From the NCBI RefSeq assembly GCF_030116705.1, contig NZ_JAOTIK010000001.1, forward strand, positions 124,001-188,000: DNA of 64,000 nucleotides. The letters run 5' to 3'. Positions 7,394 through 31,383 of the stretch are shown in pieces; the stretch's first letter is position 1; each line of letters opens with the position of its first letter. The position numbers were made by a program, and so were the translations under genes. Source of the DNA: Streptomyces sp. ML-6. Its GTDB lineage: Bacteria; Actinomycetota; Actinomycetes; Streptomycetales; Streptomycetaceae. The notes under the pieces were generated by a model. That model did not search any database and had not been told where the DNA came from. It was given only the letters and a program-made list of their open reading frames with translations.

Positions 7394-7697
7394 TCACCCC
7401 CTTCCTCTCAACACGGACGCGAGAAGATCTACCAAGCCGGAGATCAGGAGTTCGTCGGCGGCTGCCTCGGGGGTGGCGGGTGGTCGAGACCGTGAAAGAC
7501 CACGGGAGTGCCGTCCTCGGTCCAGGCGACGCTCGCGTCGTGGGCAGTGCCGTAGGGCCGAAGAGCCAGGGCCCTGCCGCGGGGGCCGGAATCCTGAAAT
7601 GCCACAGGAGCACGTAGCCTTCCGTCTCATCCGCAACCCCACCCGCCCCGCAGGCATCGACCGCCTCTACAACCTCACCTGCACCGCAGCCCGACAC
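7394..7697 (-). pseudogene. Unidentified broken coding remnant
   Basis: Three consecutive leftward segments in different frames read like one protein: EGYVLLWHFRIPAPA, then RPYGTAHDASVAWTEDGTPV and VFHGLD, then TPEAAADELLISGLVDLLAS ending at a stop at 7394. The two frame changes both fall in G/C runs (around 7575 and 7470). Codon use is normal for the genome. I do not recognise the family. Confidence 0.35.
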
Positions 7698-8032
7698 TCC
7701 GAGGATCCTCTAACAAGCGGGCAGTTGAGACGAAAACGCCCTCTTATGAAGGTGCGCGGCTACAGGACCCGGCCAGAACCGAGGCCGACCGGTTTCCGAC
7801 CAGACCCAGATGCGTTCTCAGGTAGCCCCCTCCAGCCCACCTCACGTGGTGACCCAGTTCGCCTACGCGACCATTCTCCGTGCGCGCGCCACGCAAACGC
7901 GAGACCCGGTGTCCGGACGGCAGTCCCGAGGGACTTCCCCCGTCCGCCCGTGGGTCACAGCCGGGCGCCGGGGACGGAGGTCGTCTCCGGCGCGTCGGTG
8001 TGCGCCCTCCTTGTTCTCGGGCCGCGCGGGCC
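7698..8032. other. Non-coding stretch downstream of the metallopeptidase gene
   Basis: About 335 bp with no gene I can support. TTGAGACGAAAACGC at about 7725-7739 is unlike its surroundings and might be a transposon-end sequence belonging to the remnant at 6905-7345. That is a guess. Confidence 0.25.
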
Positions 8033-21455: not shown

Positions 21456-21503
21456 CCGGCACCGGCACCGGCACCGGCACCGGCACCGGCACCGGCACCG
21501 GCA
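21456..21503. repeat. Hexanucleotide tandem repeat, eight CCGGCA units
   Basis: Eight uninterrupted copies of CCGGCA. On the plus strand one frame would encode Gly-Thr repeats, but no gene is supported here. Copy number is likely to vary between strains. Confidence 0.9.
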
Positions 21504-21638
21504 CGGCGGAGCGCGGGATGTACGAGGAGGTTCCCCCGAGGCGCGGGGATGGGTGGCAGAAGGTCGGCTGGGTCTCATGAGAGGAGCCCGGACGATGCCT
21601 GCGCGGAGGAAGTGCCCGCTGGAGTTGTGTGGGCGTGC

Positions 21639-21665
21639 GGTCCGGAGGTGCCGCATCTCCGGACC
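21639..21665 (-). terminator. Hairpin terminator after the lanthipeptide operon
   Basis: GGTCCGGAG (21639-21647) pairs with CTCCGGACC (21657-21665). Three more pairs, one a G-U, extend the stem inward to a three-base loop. It lies 33 bp beyond the stop of the last gene of the leftward operon. Confidence 0.65.
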
Positions 21666-21697
21666 GAAGCCCGTGATCCGCCGCTGGGCGGGCGCTT

Positions 21698-22552
21698 CTA
21701 CGGCATCCGAACGAGCCGGCGCATCAGGTGGATGGATGTTCGGCTGAAACCTGTCGACCGGTACAGATGGGTGGCCCGTGTGTTCTCCCTGAACACGGTC
21801 AGAGCCAGGTCGGTGTTTCCCGCGGACGCGGCATGGTTCTCCGCAACTTGGAGCAGCACTCGCCCATGCCCTCGTCCCTGATGTTTCTTCTCGACTCCTA
21901 TGTCGTGGACGAATGCCGTGCGGCCGTCCGCGCTCCTGCCGAGGCATAGGCGTCCGATGTGCTCGCCCCCATGGAAGAAGTCCTGGAGCCGGTAGGACCC
22001 CGCTGTTCCACCCAGTCGTGCGAGGGAGGTGAGGGTCTTCCGTGCGCTGGACTCCGCGTAGTCGCCGGGCAGCCCCAGGTCGCGCAGCACTGTCGCGTAC
22101 CCGCGCAGGAAGCCCCGCTCCCACGACTCCCGCCCGGCCTGCGACGCGCACACGGTCGCATAGCCCTCGCCGAGTTCCGTACCGACCCCGTTGCCCGGGC
22201 CGATCCGCTTGCCCAGGTCGTAGGCGAACTCCTTGTATCCGGCCCGCGACAGCATCGGGAGATCGCCGAACCGGAAGGAGGGAAGCGTCAGGAGAACGTG
22301 ATCGCATCCTGCGCTGAGCAGCACTCGCTCCGCTGCGCGCACCGCCCGGAGGGCGAGACGGCGTTCGTGATCGTCGTCTTCCACCTGGAACGAGTGGATC
22401 CTGCCGACGGGCGCTCCCCCGCCCGTGGCCAGACGAAGGGACCCGACATCCCGTGCCCCCACTCGCAGGACGTATTCCTCGACCGTCGGCTCCACGCCTG
22501 GCGCACCCCCGGGCGTCGCCTCCACGCGACGGAGGTCCTCCGACTGCTCCAT
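21698..22552 (-). CDS. GNAT-family N-acetyltransferase, lanthipeptide operon
   Basis: 284 residues from an ATG preceded by GAGGAGAGG. The C-terminal domain is a clear GNAT fold: FVHDIGVEKKHQGRGHGRVL carries the acetyl-CoA loop (Q-G-R-G-H-G), and LTVFRENTRATHLYRSTGF is the conserved last helix-strand. The N-terminal 150 residues look like a second, degenerate acetyltransferase domain (IHSFQVEDDDHERRLALRAV; MLSRAGYKEFAYD). It is the last gene of the lanthipeptide operon, so it may acetylate the peptide N-terminus or a lysine, or provide self-protection. The precursor core has no lysine, which favours N-terminal acetylation or another target. Confidence 0.7.
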   Translation of the reverse strand: MEQSEDLRRVEATPGGAPGVEPTVEEYVLRVGARDVGSLRLATGGGAPVGRIHSFQVEDDDHERRLALRAVRAAERVLLSAGCDHVLLTLPSFRFGDLPMLSRAGYKEFAYDLGKRIGPGNGVGTELGEGYATVCASQAGRESWERGFLRGYATVLRDLGLPGDYAESSARKTLTSLARLGGTAGSYRLQDFFHGGEHIGRLCLGRSADGRTAFVHDIGVEKKHQGRGHGRVLLQVAENHAASAGNTDLALTVFRENTRATHLYRSTGFSRTSIHLMRRLVRMP

Positions 22553-22590
22553 GCCTCTCCTCGGTTGCTGTGCGATCCGCATGCGATCGG

Positions 22591-23565
22591 TCAGACCGCG
22601 GGATGCCCCAACGCGGCCAGGAGGGCCTGCGTCTCCGAAAGACCGGCTCGTGGCCCCTCGAGGGCGACCACACCACCGGCGCTGACCACGACTTCGTCCA
22701 CTCCGGCCGCCGCGTACTCGGCCACACGGTCCTTCAGTTCGGCCGCGTCCCCGTACAGGAAGACACCACCATCGACGAGGGTCCTCGCCGCCTTCACCGG
22801 GTCCGCTTCCACATCGGTGTCCATGCCGGCCTGCCTCAGCATGTCCCGGTAGTGGGGCAGAGCGAGATGGGCCCGGTTTCCGGCGAGGACGAGCTCTTCC
22901 GTCGCCCGACCGGCCTTGTCCAGCGCGGCAGGCACCATTGCGACGACGCGCGGGACTGCGCGGCCGCGAGCGGCTGCTCCCTCTCGCAGCGCCGGCACGA
23001 TCACGTCACGGATGTATGCGGCAGGCGCCAGCCAGGTGATCGCGACATCGGCCGTCTCTCCGGCAAGCCGCGCCATCCCTGGCCGGAGCACGCCCAGGCC
23101 CACCTCGACCCGGGGACGAGTGACCTTGGGGAGTCTGCCGTGAAAGGAGAAGTACTCGCCCGTGACGGCTGTCTCTTCCCCGTCCAGCAGCCCTTTCAGG
23201 ATGCTCACGTACTCCCGTACCGCTCCCAGCTGGCTTCGGTAGGGGGCGCCCAGAAGCCTCTTCTGGAACGAGACGCTGCCGGGACCGTAGCCGGCGACGA
23301 CCGGGTGCCCGGTCGCGGCGGCCACCGACTGGGCCTGGACAGCCGCGTCGTAAGGGTGGCGCAGCGGCATCAGCGACACGCCGATGCCCGCGGGAACCGG
23401 AAATCCGGCCGCCGCCGCGTGAATGAACGGATGGTGGGTGTCGCCGCTCAGTACCTGGCCGAGCCAGAGCGTGCGCCCGCCCCTCGACTGGGCGAGCGCG
23501 GCGTAGGGCAGGACGGCCTGCATCCGCGCGCCTCCGACGGGCATCATGAGCCCGATGTCGGGCAT
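22591..23565 (-). CDS. F420-type luciferase-like oxidoreductase, candidate LanJ
   Basis: 324 residues. The ATG at 23565 is chosen because AAGGAG is seven bases upstream; an ATG one codon earlier is too close. The TIM-barrel luciferase-like fold is clear: IGLMMPVGGA at the start, TLWLGQVLSGDTHHPF, GIGVSLMPLRHPYDAAVQAQ, GYGPGSVSFQKRL and GEYFSFHGRLPKVTRPRVEV. The family uses reduced F420 or FMN. In class I-like clusters such enzymes (LanJ-C type) reduce dehydroalanine or dehydrobutyrine to D-amino acids, while a relative in actagardine clusters oxidises sulfur. Location in this operon suggests one of these two reactions on the peptide encoded at 30496-30666. Confidence 0.75.
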   Translation of the reverse strand: MPDIGLMMPVGGARMQAVLPYAALAQSRGGRTLWLGQVLSGDTHHPFIHAAAAGFPVPAGIGVSLMPLRHPYDAAVQAQSVAAATGHPVVAGYGPGSVSFQKRLLGAPYRSQLGAVREYVSILKGLLDGEETAVTGEYFSFHGRLPKVTRPRVEVGLGVLRPGMARLAGETADVAITWLAPAAYIRDVIVPALREGAAARGRAVPRVVAMVPAALDKAGRATEELVLAGNRAHLALPHYRDMLRQAGMDTDVEADPVKAARTLVDGGVFLYGDAAELKDRVAEYAAAGVDEVVVSAGGVVALEGPRAGLSETQALLAALGHPAV

Positions 23566-23620
23566 CATCGTGCTCCTTTGCACATCAACCCCCATAGGTA
23601 CGAGAGAAAATCGGGCGCGA

Positions 23621-24154
23621 TCACAGCGGAACGGACGGCGAGGAGAAGATGAATTTGGGCTTGACGCCCGGATCGTAGCCACCGCTCTTGACGACGACGA
23701 ACTGGAACGCCACAGCGTTCTCCCGCTCGCTCGCGGGGCACGAGGCGATCTCGGCGCGGACGTACTCCCGGAGGATTCGGTACAGGTGGTTCTCCGTGAT
23801 CCCCCGGACGCCGGCGGATGCGACGACTCCGCTCAACTTGCCGCAGACCATGAGAACGGACTTGACGTGCCGCCGCTGCGGGGACCACAGGGCGGAGGTC
23901 CAGCCCCTCTCGCACGGTTGCGACGGCCGCTGCCACCCGCCGGTCGAGCGGTCGGCGTGCACGAGGCGGTACAGCACCACGTAGTCGTGCTGGGCGGGGA
24001 TGGGCGCGAAGAACCGCCAGTTCGGGATGAGGCCGAGACGGTCGAACTGCCGCAGCCCGTCGAACACCCGGTGGGGGTGCTGGCTGAGGACCGTCGCGGT
24101 GAACCAGCCCGCGAGAGCGATGCGAACGGAACGGTCGAGAACAGTGCGGCTCAA
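23621..24154 (-). CDS. Uncharacterised protein of the HTTM trio
   Basis: 177 residues from a TTG that overlaps the previous stop (TTGA). A hydrophobic stretch of about 15 residues at the N-terminus (RIALAGWFTATVL) may anchor it. The IPNWRFFAPIPAQHDYVVLY segment is a recognisable block of small proteins encoded next to HTTM/SdpB-type membrane proteins. There is no catalytic motif. Tight coupling to the alpha/beta-hydrolase-like and HTTM-like genes suggests that the three act together, perhaps in export, membrane anchoring or immunity for the lanthipeptide. Confidence 0.6.
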   Translation of the reverse strand: MSRTVLDRSVRIALAGWFTATVLSQHPHRVFDGLRQFDRLGLIPNWRFFAPIPAQHDYVVLYRLVHADRSTGGWQRPSQPCERGWTSALWSPQRRHVKSVLMVCGKLSGVVASAGVRGITENHLYRILREYVRAEIASCPASERENAVAFQFVVVKSGGYDPGVKPKFIFSSPSVPL

Positions 24155-25140
24155 CGGTCGGTCTCCACCTCGTAGAGGTCATGCAGAAAGCGTCTTGTCC
24201 CATGGACGATCCTCTTCGCTCCTTCCTGGTACGGCACTTCTTCTCGCCTGACGTCGTCGAGGACCGTGCTGCCGGCGAAGTCGGGCAGGTCCATGAGTTC
24301 CGCGTGCATCTCCTGGTATGCGAGGCTCTCGGCGTTCCTGGGGCTCGACATGAGCAGGGACACGGGGACGGGGACCTTCGGTATCGCGGCCGGCTCGGCC
24401 AGTTCCCGATGTGCGGCCCGCCACTCGCGTTCCGCCGCGGTCCAGGTCGAGGCCGCGCGGTACTGATCCAGGCAGAGCGACCTCACGTGTCGGGGGACCT
24501 GCTCGATCCACGGGGGCGCCAGCAGCAGCGGGGAGAGGCCGGAGCGCAGGGACTGCGGCATCAGGGTGAAGCCGAATCCGGTTTGCTCGGAGAGTGATCG
24601 AAGCAGCTTCGACCGATGCAGCTCGCCCGGGTACCGGGGGTCGATCACCACCACTCCGTCGACCAGCTGGGGTGCGTCCGCTGCGGCCCGCAGGGCGAGG
24701 AGTCCGCCGAGGCCGTGGCCGACCAGTACCACGCGACGGCCCTCGCACGTCACCCGCACGAGGTCCGCAGTGTCCTTCACGAGCAGGTCAAGAGAGAACG
24801 CGACGGTGTTTCCGAGGCGGCTTCTGCCATAACCGGCGCGGTTGGCCGCCAGGACCGAGAAGTCCTCGCCGAGCGCGGCCTCGACCGCGCTCCATCGCTC
24901 CACGGTGTCGCCCAGGTCCGGCAGGAGCACCACCACGGGATCCGCGGCGAGCGCGGGGCGAGGTGCAGGCCTGAGCCGATATGCGATGGTGCTGCCGCTG
25001 CCGGTGCGTACGAAGCGCTCCGAACCGCTCCCCCGCGCGACCCGGCGGGCCGTCCGTCGCTGCGCGACCGCTCCTGCGAGCAGAGCAGTGCCGAACACCG
25101 TGGCAATCAGGCGCGGCAGCGTGTCATCCCTGGTGTCCAC
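24151..25140 (-). CDS. Alpha/beta-hydrolase-fold protein lacking the nucleophile Ser
   Basis: 329 residues from a GTG preceded by GGAGGG. An N-terminal hydrophobic segment (ATVFGTALLAGAVAQRR) could be a membrane anchor. The fold is clear: VVVLLPDLGDTVERWSAVEA, then VLAANRAGYGRSRLG, then VVLVGHGLGGLLALRAAA. The usual nucleophile elbow Gly-His-Ser-x-Gly-Gly is here Gly-His-Gly-Leu-Gly-Gly (position 143). A C-terminal region (VPYQEGAKRIVHGTRRFLHD) could provide the histidine. Without the serine, ordinary ester or peptide hydrolysis is not expected, so the protein may be a binding or structural relative. It overlaps both neighbours. Confidence 0.75.
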   Translation of the reverse strand: MDTRDDTLPRLIATVFGTALLAGAVAQRRTARRVARGSGSERFVRTGSGSTIAYRLRPAPRPALAADPVVVLLPDLGDTVERWSAVEAALGEDFSVLAANRAGYGRSRLGNTVAFSLDLLVKDTADLVRVTCEGRRVVLVGHGLGGLLALRAAADAPQLVDGVVVIDPRYPGELHRSKLLRSLSEQTGFGFTLMPQSLRSGLSPLLLAPPWIEQVPRHVRSLCLDQYRAASTWTAAEREWRAAHRELAEPAAIPKVPVPVSLLMSSPRNAESLAYQEMHAELMDLPDFAGSTVLDDVRREEVPYQEGAKRIVHGTRRFLHDLYEVETDR

Positions 25141-25993
25141 GGCGTCCCTCCGCTGTGCCGATCATGTTCGGACGCGTCACGTAAAGGATGGCGGGATAGG
25201 TGGAGAAGAAGGCCCACACGAAGCGCGAGAGCCCCATGACCCGGGCGTTGACCAGGTGGAAGGAGCCGGAGACGGCCAGCATGAGAGGAGCCGTCCTCCC
25301 CTTCGCCACGAAGATCACGGGAAATGCGCACTCGAACAACAGCACCCCGTGGCTCACGTACTTCGACAGTTCCGGGAAGCGCTGCGTGAGCCGGTACGCT
25401 CCCTCGTCGCCGTAGATCTCGGTCCGGAGGATGCCGGGCAGCGCTTCGCCCGAACGCCAGCCCGGGCCAGCGAGCTTGGTGACGCCGGCGGCGAAGTACG
25501 AGAGGGCCGACTGGAGTGCGATGAACCAGAGGCAGGCGTCGACCACCTTCGGCTGCCGCTCGCTCAGCCGGGCCACGGCAGCGACTCCCTGCACCGTGAA
25601 GGCCACCTGGTCGGATCCGTCCGTCCCGAAGTGCTGGCGAGGATTGACCGCCAGGGAGGACAGGGCGAGGAAGGATCCGGCGGCCGCTCTGGTCCGGCGC
25701 CCTGTCGACGGCACCAGGAGCGTCGCAGCCGCGGCCACGCGGGCGATCTGAATCGACCGGCTCACCCGCGGCCGGCCGACGAAGTCCAGGGCCCGTTGTA
25801 CGGGGGGAGGCGCCCACGCAAACTCCTCACGGACCAGGTCCCAGTCCACGAGGGGCGCGTTGCGCGTCCGGCGCTCGTTCGTCAGCGACTCGAGAGCTGC
25901 GACCAGATGCGTGATCGCGCTGATCTGCTCGGTCGTCGTCAGTGCGCGTGCGCGGCCCGGCCGCGGCACTCGAAATTTCCCTGACCACCGCAT
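25124..25993 (-). CDS. HTTM/SdpB-like integral membrane protein
   Basis: 289 residues from an ATG at 25993 with GGGG eight bases upstream; a GTG at 26008 is also possible. A charged N-terminus of about 70 residues is followed by several hydrophobic segments. One is VVDACLWFIALQSALSYFAA then GVTKLAGPGWRSGEALPGIL, a block typical of HTTM (vitamin K-dependent carboxylase-like) and SdpB-type membrane proteins. Another is LLFECAFPVIFVAKG and later SRFVWAFFSTYPAILYV. Sdp-type relatives work in toxin maturation or immunity. It follows LanC by about 40 bp and overlaps the next gene, so it belongs to the lanthipeptide operon. Confidence 0.7.
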   Translation of the reverse strand: MRWSGKFRVPRPGRARALTTTEQISAITHLVAALESLTNERRTRNAPLVDWDLVREEFAWAPPPVQRALDFVGRPRVSRSIQIARVAAAATLLVPSTGRRTRAAAGSFLALSSLAVNPRQHFGTDGSDQVAFTVQGVAAVARLSERQPKVVDACLWFIALQSALSYFAAGVTKLAGPGWRSGEALPGILRTEIYGDEGAYRLTQRFPELSKYVSHGVLLFECAFPVIFVAKGRTAPLMLAVSGSFHLVNARVMGLSRFVWAFFSTYPAILYVTRPNMIGTAEGRRGHQG

Positions 25994-26035
25994 GTCTGTT
26001 TTCCCCACCTGTTCCGATCGTCCGCCGGGCTGCTG

Positions 26036-27337
26036 TCAGGCCAGCAGGAGCGCCGCGTCCCACGGCGCCGCCTCGGTGCTTCCCGAGGCGTAGGCGTCCA
26101 GTGCCAGGACGACGCCGGTGGCGCCGTCGAGGAAACCCGGGAGCGCGAGTGTCGTCCGGCCGTCTTCGTCCGGGTATCCGAACCCGAAGGGTTCTTGTTC
26201 GTCGTAGAGCCGGAGAACCACATCGGCGATCTCTCCGCGAACGCGGTTCACCTCCTCCGCATGGGGCCCCGTCGCGAAGAACTTGAGGCAGTTGAGCGCA
26301 CCGGCCCAGCCGTGGCAGAGCCCGGCGCTCCGCACCGGCCATTGGTCCAGCGGTACGCGGACCATGGATTCCACGGCCGAATGGGCCAGCAGGCGCAGTT
26401 CCTCCTGACCGGTCGCGTCCGCCGCAAGGCGCAGCGCCGAGGCGATGCCGAGACTGCCGTAACACCACGCCGTTCTTCCGCTCTCCTCGTCGGTGTCACC
26501 GGAAAGCCACGCGTCCCACGAGATGAAGTCGGGCCAGGAGACACCGTGCTCCCCCGTCCGGGCCCGATCCCGGTAGATGGCGGCCAGCATCTCCATCGTT
26601 TTCAGCTGGCCGGGTACGGACACTCCTTGTTTGTGGGCGAGGGCCAGAAGTGCCAGCGGGCCGGCGATGCCGTGCGACATGCCGAGGTTCAGGTTGCCGG
26701 CGCGTGGCGAGGCGACGAGCCCGCCGCGCGGTCTCGTCAACGTCCAGTAGCCGGGGATGTGGTGGCCGTCGACGGAATGATTCGTTCCGAGAGCGACCAG
26801 TGCCTTCAGGACCGCCATGAGGGTGTCCCGCATCGGGGCGCCCCTCAGCAGGGCGTACCGGCCCACGCCCGCCAGACCGCTGATGGTGTCGAAGCGGGCC
26901 CGGTCACCGATGGGGTCGCGTTCGACGGAGGTGGACATCGCTGCCACGATGCCGCTCAGGGAAGCGTCGAGCTGCTGCAGGGCGCGTCCGTACCCGCTGC
27001 TGCTCCCACGGCACAGAAGGAGCGACAGCGCCAGGCCGCTGATCCCGGAGTGAAGGCCGGGGTCACTGGCCGGACCGCGCTGCAGCAACTGGACGGCCGC
27101 GGTGAAATGCCGGTGTGAGACGCGGTCCATCCGCAGGCCGGGAGGTGCGCAGTCGCCGAAGAGGAGGGCCACGCCGGGCAGCCCGCTGCCCAGGCTCCGG
27201 GTCTGTGCCTCCAGTTGCGCCGGGGTCGCGCCGTCGCCCAGCGCGTCGGTGAACGTCCTCACGACGGAGGCGGGTTCGACGAGCCTGGCCGAGACGTCCT
27301 GGCAGACCCGGTGTACGTGGTTGATTCTGTCGGTCAT
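26036..27337 (-). CDS. lanC: Lanthipeptide cyclase LanC
   Basis: 433 residues; its ATG overlaps the LanB stop (ATGA), so translation is coupled. The alpha-toroid of LanC proteins is seen as repeated Gly-rich helices (GLHSGISGLALSLLLC; GMSHGIAGPLALLALAHKQG). The zinc ligands are present: Cys292 in TAWCYGSLGIASAL, and Cys341-His342 in GLCHGWAGALN. His222 in MSHGIAG corresponds to the catalytic histidine region of NisC. The enzyme adds cysteine thiols to dehydrated Ser/Thr to form lanthionine rings in the cytoplasm, working with LanB. Confidence 0.95.
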   Translation of the reverse strand: MTDRINHVHRVCQDVSARLVEPASVVRTFTDALGDGATPAQLEAQTRSLGSGLPGVALLFGDCAPPGLRMDRVSHRHFTAAVQLLQRGPASDPGLHSGISGLALSLLLCRGSSSGYGRALQQLDASLSGIVAAMSTSVERDPIGDRARFDTISGLAGVGRYALLRGAPMRDTLMAVLKALVALGTNHSVDGHHIPGYWTLTRPRGGLVASPRAGNLNLGMSHGIAGPLALLALAHKQGVSVPGQLKTMEMLAAIYRDRARTGEHGVSWPDFISWDAWLSGDTDEESGRTAWCYGSLGIASALRLAADATGQEELRLLAHSAVESMVRVPLDQWPVRSAGLCHGWAGALNCLKFFATGPHAEEVNRVRGEIADVVLRLYDEQEPFGFGYPDEDGRTTLALPGFLDGATGVVLALDAYASGSTEAAPWDAALLLA

Positions 27338-30300
27338 CGGTGTCGCAGCCTTCGCGCCGCGTGGCCGAGCAGGATGAGGCTCCGTTCCTCGTTCTCCGGG
27401 TTCACACCAACGAGACGGTTGTGCTGCATGTGGAGAAGGCTGGAGATGGCGTAGTTCTGCTGTTTCTCGGAGAACCGGGACGGATCCCGCGCGATGCTCT
27501 CGCCGTAGCCGCGCGCAGCAGCGTTGTCTCCCCAGGCCCGTACCAGGTCGAGGGCCGGAAGGCGTTCGGTGACGCTTCGTGCGACATCCTTGGCCGTCAC
27601 GATCCGGCACACCTCGTCGATCTGGTCACGCCCGACGGCCCCGTCCCTGGACTTCATGAACCGTTCCGCCGCCCATGTGGTCCAGTCCACCCCGAGGGCT
27701 TCCAGCAGGGACGCGTAGTCGGCCACCAGGACGGTGTTGGCGGTGACGCCGAGGGTCTGGCCACGGTTCAACAGACGGATCTGGTTGACGGCTACCTGAC
27801 TGTCGACGCAGAAGATCCTCTCGGCGAGCGACAGCGCCTCGGGGCCGCCGTAGCGCTCGGTCTCCGGCTCGTAGGACTCGGCACTGGCGCGGCGGAGGAG
27901 CCCCTTGCGGATGAGGGCCCGCAGGTTCTCGTGCAGCCGCTCGTGCATCCGGTCCGTCGTCCTCGCATCGGCGCTGTGCAGACGCAGGCGGACATGCGGT
28001 TCCGGATCGTTGAAGCGGATGAAGAACCACTGGTCGGCCAGATCGGCCAGCTCCCTTATCACGTGCGGCAGATGGTGTGCGATCAACTCGTCATGGGTGT
28101 CGAGGTCGGCGTAGAGCCGTACGTACGCCCAGTCGCCGCCGAGACCGTGGTGCACGGGCTCGATCACTGCCGGCGGGTGCGGCGGCCGGGGACTGTCCGG
28201 TTCGGCCCTCCCGCGCAGCGGGACCACGATCTCGTTGGACCGGCCCTGGAGCCAGCCGAAGTCCTCCTCGGCCCTGCCCGGTGCCTCCATCAGGGTGATC
28301 CCGCCCTTGAGCAGGTCGCGGCGGAGGATCTCGCGGTGGAAGGCGTCGTCGAGGTCCAGCCCGTAGACGCGGTCCTGGTCCACGACGCCGACCCGTCGGT
28401 CGACGCGTGACGCATCGCGCCACCGCGAGACCGCCTCGTGCCAGGCCGAAGGGTCCCCCGCGGCCTGGCGCAGGGCAGGGGTGGCACGCCAGGTCCTGGG
28501 GAAGGCGACGACCTTGCCGATACGGACGCGCGGCAGCATGGGCAGCGCGTCGTACCCCTTCCAGTTCCATTCGCGCCAGGCCTTCCGGCCGCTCGTGTAC
28601 CGCAGTTCGCTGAGGAACCTCGCCAGGTTCGGCGCGCCCCCCTGCAGTGCGAGCATGTGCGGGACGAAGGGGTGCACCTCCGTGTCCTCACGCGGCCAGT
28701 GAAGGCGGAGCCTCGTTCCGTCGGAGTGGACGACGAGTTCTCGCCAGTCGATGGGACGGCTGCCGTCCTCCCGGCCGGCGAAGGTGCCGATGGGGAGGGT
28801 GAAGGGGACGAGGCGCGGCGTGCGCATCACGTTGCGGGCGCGCGCCGAGGTCGGCTCGAAGAAGACCTGCGCGTGAACACCGGAGGAGTGGCCGGAGGCG
28901 TAGAGCGCGGCGAGCCGGTCCACGCTGCCGGTCAGTTCCGCGAACCGCCCCATGGTGGCACCCATGACACGCGCGCCGACCAGTGGTGACGAGACCAGCT
29001 CGAAGTCACCGGCGTTCAGGGCGTCGGTGTCCCGGGCCCTGAGCTGGAAGCAGAGGTCCATGTCGTACGGGGGTGCCTGTGTGCTGTCCGCGAGCAGTTC
29101 CACATCGGACTCGTCCAGGACGACCTCTCCGTCCGGGTGCGTCAGTCCGCTGTGCAGCAGCACAGCCACGTGCTCTTCGCGCCGCGCCTGGCGGAGCTCG
29201 TCCTTCGTGCCCGTGACGTCGGGGAAGACCCGGGAGTTGACGAGGGGGTGGCGGTAGCCGGTGGGGAAGCCCAGGCCGCGGTGCGAGTCGACGAGCTGCT
29301 CGAGCCGGACCGCCCCGTACTTGCCGTAGCGGTCCATGAACGCGTAGAAGTACGACACCATGTGCGGGTGCGAGGGCTCGTCGGGAGTGATGCGCCACAT
29401 CGAGGACGCGTACGAATTGACCTCCGCGAGCACGCCGGGCGGGACAGCGGCCCGGATCCCCAGGTCCAAGTCCACCTGGATGGCGCCCTTCGCCGTCTCG
29501 GCGAGACCACTGGCCGTACGGGAGGCTGCCCTGAGCTCCTCGATCCCTTCCGTCGATTCCGGGCGCTCCTCGTAACGGCGCAGGCGGGTGCGGAGCTCCC
29601 GCATCGTGTCGGCCTCCGGACAGGTGCCGTCGTGCGGCAGCTCGTCGAGGAGGTCGGGGCGCAGCGAGGTGAGCAGGACGCCGTTCTGCACGAGCCCGAG
29701 GAGGTAGCGGTCGATCTGTTCGGCCGGGGTGTCGGGCATGGTGCCGGCCAGCCGGTCGGCCAGCTCCGCGTACCGGATCGGCCTCGCCGCCGTCTCACGG
29801 ACGGTGGCCAGGAGCCGGGTCATGCGGATGCTCGCCTGGCCGCTGCCCTTCTCCCCCGTGCCGTCCGGGGCTTGCGTGCTGGGCAGCACGAGCCTGTCCC
29901 CGCGGACGTGGCTGAGGTTGGTGACGACGACGGTCAGCGAGTGGCGCACGCTCGGGTACGTCAGCAGGGTCCGCGCCACCTCGGAGAACCATGCCTCGTC
30001 GAACCGTGCTCTCACACGGCGCTCCGTGTGCTCCACGCGCGCGGTGCCCGCCGTCTCCAGAACGGAGACTCCGGCGTGCAGGCCGAAAGGTGTCGGCCGG
30101 CCGGCTATGCGCAGGGCGTACTTGGTGAGCGAGACGGCCATCTTCATCAGGCGCTTCCGCGGCAGTTCCGCGCCCTCGAGCAGCCGTTCCAGCGTCTTGT
30201 CGAGAGACGGGCTCGACACCGTCACGGCGTCGCGGAGGCGTCGGTCCGATGCCAGAAGCCGGATCTGGGCCAGGAGATCCATGTCGCAGAATTCGTACGT

Positions 30301-30399
30301 TTCGCTCGCCGGAGGCGAGGGAATTTCAGCCGGGCTTTGAGAGGTGGCCACCGCACGAAGCATCAGCGGTTCCTGTGACGTGAAGTAACCCGTCTTCAT
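27334..30399 (-). CDS. lanB: Class I lanthipeptide dehydratase LanB
   Basis: 1021 residues, the length of a full LanB with both domains in one chain. The N-terminal glutamylation domain covers roughly residues 35-680 (LTKYALRIAGRPTPFGLHAG; SYFYAFMDRYGKYGAVRLEQ). The C-terminal elimination domain covers roughly 730-1000 (WFFIRFNDPEPHVRLRLHS; SYEPETERYGGPEALSLAE), with the Arg/His/Glu pattern of SpaB_C. It uses glutamyl-tRNA to activate Ser/Thr of the precursor and then eliminates glutamate to give Dha/Dhb. The start is an ATG with GGAGG upstream. The gene lies 97 bp after the precursor gene and behind an attenuator hairpin. Confidence 0.95.
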   Translation of the reverse strand: MKTGYFTSQEPLMLRAVATSQSPAEIPSPPASETYEFCDMDLLAQIRLLASDRRLRDAVTVSSPSLDKTLERLLEGAELPRKRLMKMAVSLTKYALRIAGRPTPFGLHAGVSVLETAGTARVEHTERRVRARFDEAWFSEVARTLLTYPSVRHSLTVVVTNLSHVRGDRLVLPSTQAPDGTGEKGSGQASIRMTRLLATVRETAARPIRYAELADRLAGTMPDTPAEQIDRYLLGLVQNGVLLTSLRPDLLDELPHDGTCPEADTMRELRTRLRRYEERPESTEGIEELRAASRTASGLAETAKGAIQVDLDLGIRAAVPPGVLAEVNSYASSMWRITPDEPSHPHMVSYFYAFMDRYGKYGAVRLEQLVDSHRGLGFPTGYRHPLVNSRVFPDVTGTKDELRQARREEHVAVLLHSGLTHPDGEVVLDESDVELLADSTQAPPYDMDLCFQLRARDTDALNAGDFELVSSPLVGARVMGATMGRFAELTGSVDRLAALYASGHSSGVHAQVFFEPTSARARNVMRTPRLVPFTLPIGTFAGREDGSRPIDWRELVVHSDGTRLRLHWPREDTEVHPFVPHMLALQGGAPNLARFLSELRYTSGRKAWREWNWKGYDALPMLPRVRIGKVVAFPRTWRATPALRQAAGDPSAWHEAVSRWRDASRVDRRVGVVDQDRVYGLDLDDAFHREILRRDLLKGGITLMEAPGRAEEDFGWLQGRSNEIVVPLRGRAEPDSPRPPHPPAVIEPVHHGLGGDWAYVRLYADLDTHDELIAHHLPHVIRELADLADQWFFIRFNDPEPHVRLRLHSADARTTDRMHERLHENLRALIRKGLLRRASAESYEPETERYGGPEALSLAERIFCVDSQVAVNQIRLLNRGQTLGVTANTVLVADYASLLEALGVDWTTWAAERFMKSRDGAVGRDQIDEVCRIVTAKDVARSVTERLPALDLVRAWGDNAAARGYGESIARDPSRFSEKQQNYAISSLLHMQHNRLVGVNPENEERSLILLGHAARRLRHR

Positions 30400-30423
30400 C
30401 CCCTGCCTCCATAAGAACGAGCC

Positions 30424-30469
30424 GCCAGGCCCATGAAAAGAAGGCTGAGCCCCTTTTCACAGGCCTGGC
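30424..30469 (-). terminator. Attenuator hairpin between lanA and lanB
   Basis: Arms 30424-30440 and 30453-30469 (GCCAGGCC..TGAAAAG type) pair over 17 positions with two mismatches, around a 12-base loop. Placed just after the precursor stop and before LanB, it should lower read-through so that the peptide is made in excess of its enzymes, as in other RiPP operons. Confidence 0.7.
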
Positions 30470-30495
30470 ATTTCCGAATATCCCTCACGGGATGA

Positions 30496-30666
30496 TTACG
30501 CGCAGCAGGTGCGCCAACCGTTGGAGGTGCTGGACCCGTTGCCCATGCTGTCGACCGCACAGCTGTACATCTGGTCGGCCACGTCGCCACTCGACATGAA
30601 GTGGACGTCGAGGTCGAGGTCGCTCAGTTCCTCGTCAGCCGCTGCGATGAGAAGATCCGTGCTCAT
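30496..30666 (-). CDS. lanA: Class I lanthipeptide precursor LanA
   Basis: 56 residues from an ATG with GGGAG seven bases upstream. The leader is acidic: after MSTDLLIAAADEELSDLDLD, where SDLDLDV at residues 15-21 resembles the F(N/D)LD box recognised by LanB, comes SSGDVADQ. The core probably starts near residue 33. It holds Ser35, Cys36, Ser40, a run of Ser45-Ser46-Thr47-Ser48, Thr53 and a terminal Cys54-Cys55-Ala56. Three cysteines allow up to three rings, and the surplus Ser/Thr leaves free Dha/Dhb for the reductase. Cleavage site and ring pattern are not known. I recognise no described lantibiotic in the core. Confidence 0.85.
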   Translation of the reverse strand: MSTDLLIAAADEELSDLDLDVHFMSSGDVADQMYSCAVDSMGNGSSTSNGWRTCCA

Positions 30667-30801
30667 GATGCAACTCCCGTTCATAGTCAGGGCGTGCATG
30701 GAAAGTAACGGATATTTCCCGCGCCCAATGACTCGTGCTCCTGCGAGGAAGAAATATCTGCTACAGGCTTCCATGCCGAACGCCAGAACTTTCCGTTCAG
30801 G

Positions 30802-30831
30802 AACCTAAGTGCCGATGATCACTCGTGTCAA
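30802..30831 (-). promoter_or_regulatory. Candidate lanA promoter
   Basis: On the leftward strand TTGACA (30831-30826) and TAGGTT (30807-30802) are 18 bp apart, a vegetative-type sigma-70 promoter. It would give a 5' leader of about 130 nt before lanA. The region is far more AT-rich than the rest of the window. Confidence 0.5.
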
Positions 30832-30839
30832 CAGCCCTT

Positions 30840-31383
30840 TAAAAGGAAGTAAAGATTCCCCAATCTATGCCCCATATGTGACTATTGATCATGGGAGTCG
30901 CATTGCGCCACCCTGTCATCAAAATTCACTTGACACTCAACCTCCCCCTGTGAAAAGCGCCGCCACCACTCCCCCTCCCTGGGGCCTTCACCCGTGGGAA
31001 AGATTCCGCCACTTCAGTCCTGGCCCTGACGATCCGGGCATCGAAACGCTGCGACAGTACGAGGCAGGGTCGTTTTCCGGCCAAAGAATGCCCTCATCCG
31101 CACTGAGAACGTAAGGGTCCTGGCGACCGGGAAGGTTCCTGGACGGCTCAGGGCTGTCCCGGTACAGCTGGTCACGAGTGGGGCGATCGTCGGGGTGGCC
31201 GGTGTGATCACGGCGTCCGACCCGTCCTGGACAGCATCGTGGCGATTGTCCTCATCCCGCGGCGTCCCAGGGAGCGGGAATCACCAGGCCCCGGTGGCGG
31301 TGGCGAGTTGGCCTTGTCCCGCCACGCCTCCACCCACCCCGAAGCAGAAACCCGCCACGCGTCTTCTACGACCTCCAGGAGTA
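30840..31383. other. Upstream region of the lanthipeptide operon, no gene
   Basis: About 540 bp without a supported gene. The first 120 bp are AT-rich and may contain regulator sites for lanA. The 31340-31450 part has a plus frame (FYDLQEYLDPEGNRDAFGVE; EQLVGLWARL) that looks like a coding scrap of unknown origin, overlapping the hairpin at 31384. Confidence 0.35.

Follow-up and report, generated by a model that had tools for sequence, protein, structure and literature searches.

A predicted class I lanthipeptide operon with a linaridin-type gene trio in Streptomyces sp. ML-6

The clusters of the linaridins cypemycin, grisemycin, legonaridin and corynaridin, in the passages of PMC9927463 that deal with them, encode an HTTM membrane protein, an alpha/beta-hydrolase and the protein LinL, in fused or separate genes; the same passages describe LinL as so far associated only with linaridins and as a means of finding them. 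Dehydration in linaridins is attributed to LinH or LinL, proteins that show no similarity to spr proteins (both points from the linaridin section of PMC7794033), and a section of PMC10373908 states that linaridins contain D residues and that grmL, the linL gene of grisemycin, is indispensable and potentially an epimerase gene. Here we describe such a trio in an operon that is predicted from its genes to be a complete class I lanthipeptide operon, located in a 64,000-nucleotide stretch of the Streptomyces sp. ML-6 genome (contig NZ_JAOTIK010000001.1, positions 124,001 to 188,000; hereafter the window). We infer from these genes that the trio most likely flips some amino acids of the peptide product to their mirror-image form.

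The trio and its linaridin relatives

The operon runs leftward as lanA, lanB, lanC, the genes for the HTTM protein, the alpha/beta-hydrolase and a protein of 177 residues, and finally those for an LLM-class oxidoreductase and a GNAT acetyltransferase, all eight being present and intact where the initial annotation had placed them (Table 1). Judged from sequence, the trio after lanC is the linaridin maturation set LinG, LinE and LinL, the pair of HTTM protein and hydrolase being represented in linaridins by LinH or by LinG and LinE. The HTTM protein scores 29.2 bits against the Pfam HTTM profile (cut-off 27.7) and matches the SdpB profile TIGR04033 weakly (E 0.0019); the 177-residue protein has DUF5819 as its sole Pfam match (E 0.063) and six relatives at E ≤0.001 in the protein collection.

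A genome search found the 177-residue protein in 59 of 392 Streptomyces genomes, the window's own included (68 matches); scanning named genomes with a pattern gave 73 loci. Of the 68 matches, 63 are covered by the 61 Streptomyces loci that were fetched; G050, G313, G377, G145 and the copy in the window itself were left out. When the eight window proteins were compared with these loci by tblastn, HTTM was detected in 61/61, the hydrolase in 50/61 (in L079 on the opposite strand) and the 177-residue protein in 59/61, and lanA, lanB, lanC, LLM and GNAT were detected in none of the 61. In only two of the 73 loci from named genomes, those of S. atratus and S. gelaticus, does linL have lanB and lanC beside it. 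The trio thus occurs mostly apart from lanthipeptide genes, an outcome that the initial annotation had named as refuting its proposal; it does not refute a modification role, since the usual home of the trio is another class of ribosomally synthesised and post-translationally modified peptide (RiPP). LanB (E ≤1e-60) occurs in 21 of the 59 genomes with the 177-residue protein against 21.8 expected from 145/392, which is co-occurrence at chance; only the physical linkage of the trio with lanB and lanC is special, not co-occurrence at the genome level.

Common neighbours at LinL loci are small peptides, methyltransferases, ABC transporters and flavin adenine dinucleotide (FAD) oxidoreductases, the last three all lying within 9 kb in 50 of 120 non-redundant loci, a descriptive count only, as the neighbour profiles were built from those same loci. 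A strict linaridin precursor motif was found near 44 of these 120 loci (76 were without it) and near none of 20 loci fetched around related LanBs. In the Streptomyces locus L085, a peptide (7524-7706) that we take to end in the cypemycin core has as its neighbours a fused HTTM-hydrolase, genes for a flavoprotein and a methyltransferase, and a LinL homologue; in the fused protein, HTTM is detected by tblastn, while the Pfam HTTM profile does not attain E 0.05. The peptide of L087, also from Streptomyces, differs from this core at one residue. A single locus of Streptomyces sp. CT34, the source of legonaridin, holds FAD, methyltransferase, hydrolase, LinL and HTTM genes with a Thr-rich 63-residue peptide. 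In the window itself, the PxxxTP cleavage motif is absent from LanA, and the strict motif occurs in 0/18 small called genes.

In a tree of HTTM and LinL (119 rows, built by a quick method with SH-aLRT support only), the window groups with the loci of S. atratus OK807 (L103) and S. gelaticus (L104) with a support of 98, then with metagenomic P0002, represented by LinL columns only (99), and this group is nested in an 11-row clade (99), four of whose seven other members (L106, L107, L111 and L160) carry the strict linaridin motif. Since the trio nests among linaridin loci, the lanthipeptide operon most likely received it from a linaridin cluster.

Elsewhere in the host genome, locus L003 (10204-12629; C1:7.15 Mb) contains a second, linaridin-type trio with small peptide, methyltransferase, ABC and FAD genes. 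Seven further loci (L070, L073, L075, L077, L081, L091 and L092) have LinL-like/HTTM-like pairs without a hydrolase match that are seemingly not linaridins, and a gene of about 250 codons (cluster c17) adjoins most of these pairs.

Loss of the hydrolase active site and the proposed pathway

Both the nucleophile serine and the catalytic histidine are kept in 100 of the 107 aligned hydrolases. Gly/Arg takes the place of this pair in the window, L103 and L104, Arg/Asn in S. bacillaris P0009 and Ala/Arg in L110; partial replacements are found in L064 (Ala/His) and L108 (gap/His). The window hydrolase, already described as lacking its nucleophile serine, indeed has GHG in place of GHS; having lost the histidine too, it is predicted to be dead. 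Of the positions with a conservation of 85% or more in the other rows, the window keeps 34/35 in HTTM and 25/26 in LinL, but only 18/26 in the hydrolase, a lower retention than in either partner (Fisher p 0.003 and 0.024, respectively). Two observations argue against too simple an account: L085, L087 and L079 (3/101 other rows) deviate at 8 positions as well, yet their Ser and His are intact; and Asp102 of LinL, present in 116/121 rows, gives way to Met in the window, L103, L104 and P0002 and to Glu in L147.

A second lineage with lanB and trio genes is likely to exist in S. bacillaris. Its LanB P0015 (49% identity) and hydrolase P0009 (47%, catalytic pair lost) have four members each and the same longest contig figure of 168,329 bases, and they very probably share one contig.

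For the predicted model of the window HTTM protein, each of the 15 top-ranking structural matches is GGCX, the vitamin K gamma-carboxylase. Lys165 (numbered in the 281-residue form) is invariant and, by alignment range, falls near GGCX K217/K218, K218 being the catalytic lysine of GGCX.

On balance, we consider it fairly probable that the operon directs a class I lanthipeptide pathway with a linaridin module. LanB would dehydrate Ser and Thr residues and LanC would close the rings, and the LinG-like HTTM protein and LinL would form a membrane complex, most likely epimerising core residues from L to D, an activity already proposed for LinL of grisemycin. The catalytic triad of the LinE-like hydrolases would serve dehydration in linaridins, or another step made redundant by LanB and LanC. 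Since LanB is present, dehydration by the trio would be unnecessary, and we propose that this is why the hydrolase lost its active site, the protein persisting as a structural or peptide-binding partner. The formation of a carbanion at the membrane, as in GGCX, would suit deprotonation of the alpha carbon, to which the use of menaquinol would be our own extension.

A bolder reading, which we put forward tentatively, is that HTTM and LinL constitute a portable membrane peptide epimerase of GGCX fold that has been recruited outside linaridins, in this case by a class I lanthipeptide, maybe with a lysine-activated quinol (menaquinol) taking the backbone alpha proton, after the manner of human GGCX. 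The hydrolase would again be a dead scaffold here, and clusters of the radical S-adenosylmethionine (SAM)/aroma-sacti kind would perhaps be further recruits; if true, the lanthipeptide product would carry, in addition to its rings, a large number of epimerised residues. Four loci fit a portable HTTM-LinL core with an optional hydrolase. In Nonomuraea deserti (L147, 5522-13153), HTTM and LinL occur without a hydrolase, next to an aroma-sacti-domain peptide and to three radical SAMs, one of B12 type and two weakly resembling YydG, that all score below NCBIfam cut-offs. In Actinacidiphila yanglinensis (L110, 4896-10513), a fused HTTM-hydrolase with both Ser and His replaced is accompanied by LinL, with a radical SAM, an aroma-sacti-domain peptide and a 55-residue Cys/Ser/Thr peptide on the opposite strand nearby; in both loci the functional link is positional only. 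In the Actinopolyspora loci L138 (9125-10540) and L158 (9023-10537), HTTM and LinL are fused in one frame, with no hydrolase or obvious RiPP genes.

We regard it as unlikely that the trio still dehydrates positions not handled by LanB. The role attributed to LinH or LinL in the linaridin section of PMC7794033 and the several Ser/Thr residues of the LanA core favour this idea, but LanB is complete, and the decayed active site is that of the hydrolase, as expected were its reaction redundant. Just as doubtful is a serine-less hydrolase that acts itself as the epimerase, like BotH of bottromycin, with HTTM and LinL merely presenting the peptide: the catalytic pair has been replaced differently in the window and in S. 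bacillaris, and linaridin hydrolases retain Ser and His although their products contain D residues (according to the section of PMC10373908 cited above). BotH was also not among the best 60 of 102 PDB sequence matches, which excludes little.

The lanthipeptide core and the conserved cassette

LanB and LanC are complete, as first described: Pfam Lant_dehydr_N (2-649/649) and Lant_dehydr_C (1-253/255) are both matched nearly in full by LanB, and LANC_like (5-350/350) by LanC, whose WCYG and LCHG motifs we take to be zinc ligands. LanA has a leader box followed by a Cys/Ser/Thr-rich core, and LanA-shaped peptides also occur upstream of related lanB genes in fetched loci. The LanB relatives show 47-49% identity, those with fetched loci about 33-43%, and the trio, LLM and GNAT genes are absent from all 20 loci fetched around them. 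The LLM protein matches PF00296 (Bac_luciferase), with TIGR03564 as its best NCBIfam profile, and remains below NCBIfam cut-offs; it is an LLM-class F420-type protein inside a lanthipeptide cluster, as would be expected of LanJC, the F420H2-dependent dehydroalanine reductase. By analogy, it may add D-Ala by reducing leftover dehydroalanine, a role for which LxmJ of lexapeptide would be the precedent (in the relevant part of PMC8498797). For the GNAT protein, N-terminal acetylation or self-protection are our guesses. At L219 (8488-11965; C1:4.76 Mb), the host genome has another class I set of lanA, lanB and lanC, which lacks the trio.

No LanT, LanP or LanFEG gene is found inside the cassette, in agreement with the initial annotation, which had suggested that the trio might replace export, leader removal or immunity, or add a new modification. 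A replacement of this kind would suit the membrane-type helical fold of the HTTM model and the long hydrophobic first helix predicted for LinL, but we think it improbable. The hydrolase is unlikely to be a serine peptidase because its catalytic Ser and His are lost, and the absence of a nearby ABC gene is common anyway, as an ABC ATPase within 7 kb is missing from 11 of the 17 comparable lanB-lanC loci (20 were fetched). Elsewhere the trio mostly coexists with an ABC gene, found within 9 kb in 91/120 non-redundant loci (again a descriptive count). Actinobacterial clusters are typically without a protease gene (as put in a passage of PMC11672506), and the missing LanT and LanP are ordinary for such clusters. 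The three genes do form a coupled unit, for which a new modification is the best supported of the suggested roles.

The operon recurs as a block. It aligns at 94% identity with S. atratus OK807 in a single block (window 21698-31148) and at 93% with S. gelaticus (21689-30929; a further 191 bases upstream align at 75%); beyond this block, neither of the two 20-kb loci matches anything in the window at E 1e-10. The recurring unit extends from some 480 bases upstream of lanA to the GNAT gene and contains no transporter, protease or immunity genes. In S. atratus NBC_00041, it is carried on a 0.9-Mb linear plasmid, and three S. atratus plasmid records contain it; the window is located close to an end of its 7.8-Mb contig. 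None of the eight reading frames is interrupted in the window, in S. gelaticus or in S. atratus NBC_00041; in S. atratus OK807 (L103, 3762-6819), lanB is split over two frames.

Among the three species, the ratio of non-synonymous to synonymous change (dN/dS) is below 0.5 for each gene in each pair: 0.18-0.26 for HTTM, 0.24-0.47 for the hydrolase, 0.24-0.33 for the 177-residue protein, and 0-0.05 for lanA, with 5-6 synonymous and 0-1 non-synonymous changes. Because three species share the block in differing surroundings and with such ratios, the operon is more than a chance assembly, and these comparisons indicate a self-contained cassette under purifying selection. A hitch-hiking trio with no function in the pathway, as the missing catalytic residues of the hydrolase might suggest, is very improbable given this selection on all three genes and the retained conserved positions of HTTM and LinL.

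Within the operon, lanB/lanC and hydrolase/177-residue genes overlap by 4 bases each and HTTM/hydrolase by 17 bases. For the HTTM gene, 25969 is the more probable start, since the GTG at 26008 is not conserved among relatives and the S. atratus record begins at the equivalent of 25969; the LLM and GNAT starts were corrected to 23568 and 22552. The earlier promoter candidate upstream of lanA is unchanged in the window, S. atratus and S. gelaticus, although a generic promoter scan does not list it. The hairpin proposed at the other end folds strongly (stretch 21675-21630, -28.2 kcal/mol, z -4.3) but lies outside the block common to the other species. A short tandem ccggtg-type repeat (about 21457-21504) is found right beyond the cassette end.

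Table 1. Features of the operon and its flanks (window coordinates)
Feature	Position	Strand	Basis
Conserved cassette, lanA promoter region to GNAT stop	21698..31148	-	alignment to S. atratus and S. gelaticus
Promoter candidate TTGACA-17-TTAGGT upstream of lanA	30803..30831	-	three-species identity
lanA, 56-residue precursor; leader DLDLDV box; C-terminal part with 3 Cys and GSSTS run	30496..30666	-	
lanB, full-length class I dehydratase	27334..30399	-	PF04738, PF14028
lanC cyclase, WCYG and LCHG motifs	26036..27337	-	PF05147
linG-like HTTM membrane protein, predicted GGCX-like fold, invariant Lys	25124..25969	-	
linE-like alpha/beta-hydrolase, catalytic Ser to Gly143, His to Arg299	24151..25140	-	
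linL (CypL/GrmL) homologue, 177 residues, TTG start	23621..24154	-	homologues in linaridin loci
LLM-class (F420-type) oxidoreductase, candidate dehydroalanine reductase	22591..23568	-	PF00296
GNAT acetyltransferase, final cassette gene	21698..22552	-	PF00583; end of shared block
Hairpin just past cassette, possible terminator, without counterpart in relatives	21639..21665	-	folding

Significance and comparison with known systems

The trio is known from linaridins. Its capture by a class I lanthipeptide operon, with a predicted dead hydrolase and conserved HTTM and LinL, was not encountered in a literature search, in which no publication described LinL/LinH in a LanB cluster, although subscription papers were thinly covered and this is weak evidence of absence. 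Since LinL is described in PMC9927463, in the passages cited, as only linaridin-associated so far, LinL-based mining would misfile the window cluster. The cassette is a natural experiment in which LanB supplies dehydration, the hydrolase site has decayed and the HTTM and LinL residues have been kept, and it makes the question of which linaridin protein does what directly testable. It also offers a compact system for D residues in lanthipeptides, and the GGCX-like fold of the model would connect the peptide chemistry of bacteria with an enzyme of human blood clotting.

The window shares with the linaridins a LinL accompanied by HTTM and hydrolase, in a trio nested among theirs. It differs in having LanB, LanC and a LanA without the linaridin motif, in having no linaridin-type methyltransferase, ABC or FAD gene within the cassette, and in a hydrolase without its catalytic Ser and His. 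With GGCX, the HTTM part shares its predicted fold, but it corresponds to the membrane part only (281 versus 624-698 residues, 12-13% identity); its substrate would be a bacterial RiPP precursor, and carboxylation is not proposed.

The class I lanthipeptide clusters of Streptomyces and its kin have the same lanA-lanB-lanC order and DLDL-type leader box, and differ in the absence of the trio, LLM and GNAT from the 20 fetched loci, S. bacillaris being the probable exception. The class V lanthidins cacaoidin and lexapeptide likewise combine lanthionine with a linaridin-like trait, which in their case is N-dimethylation, and the D-amino acid of lexapeptide is made by an F420H2 reductase (both from the lanthidin part of PMC10373908). 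They rely, however, on other dehydration and cyclisation proteins, whereas the window uses LanB and LanC plus homologues of LinG and LinL.

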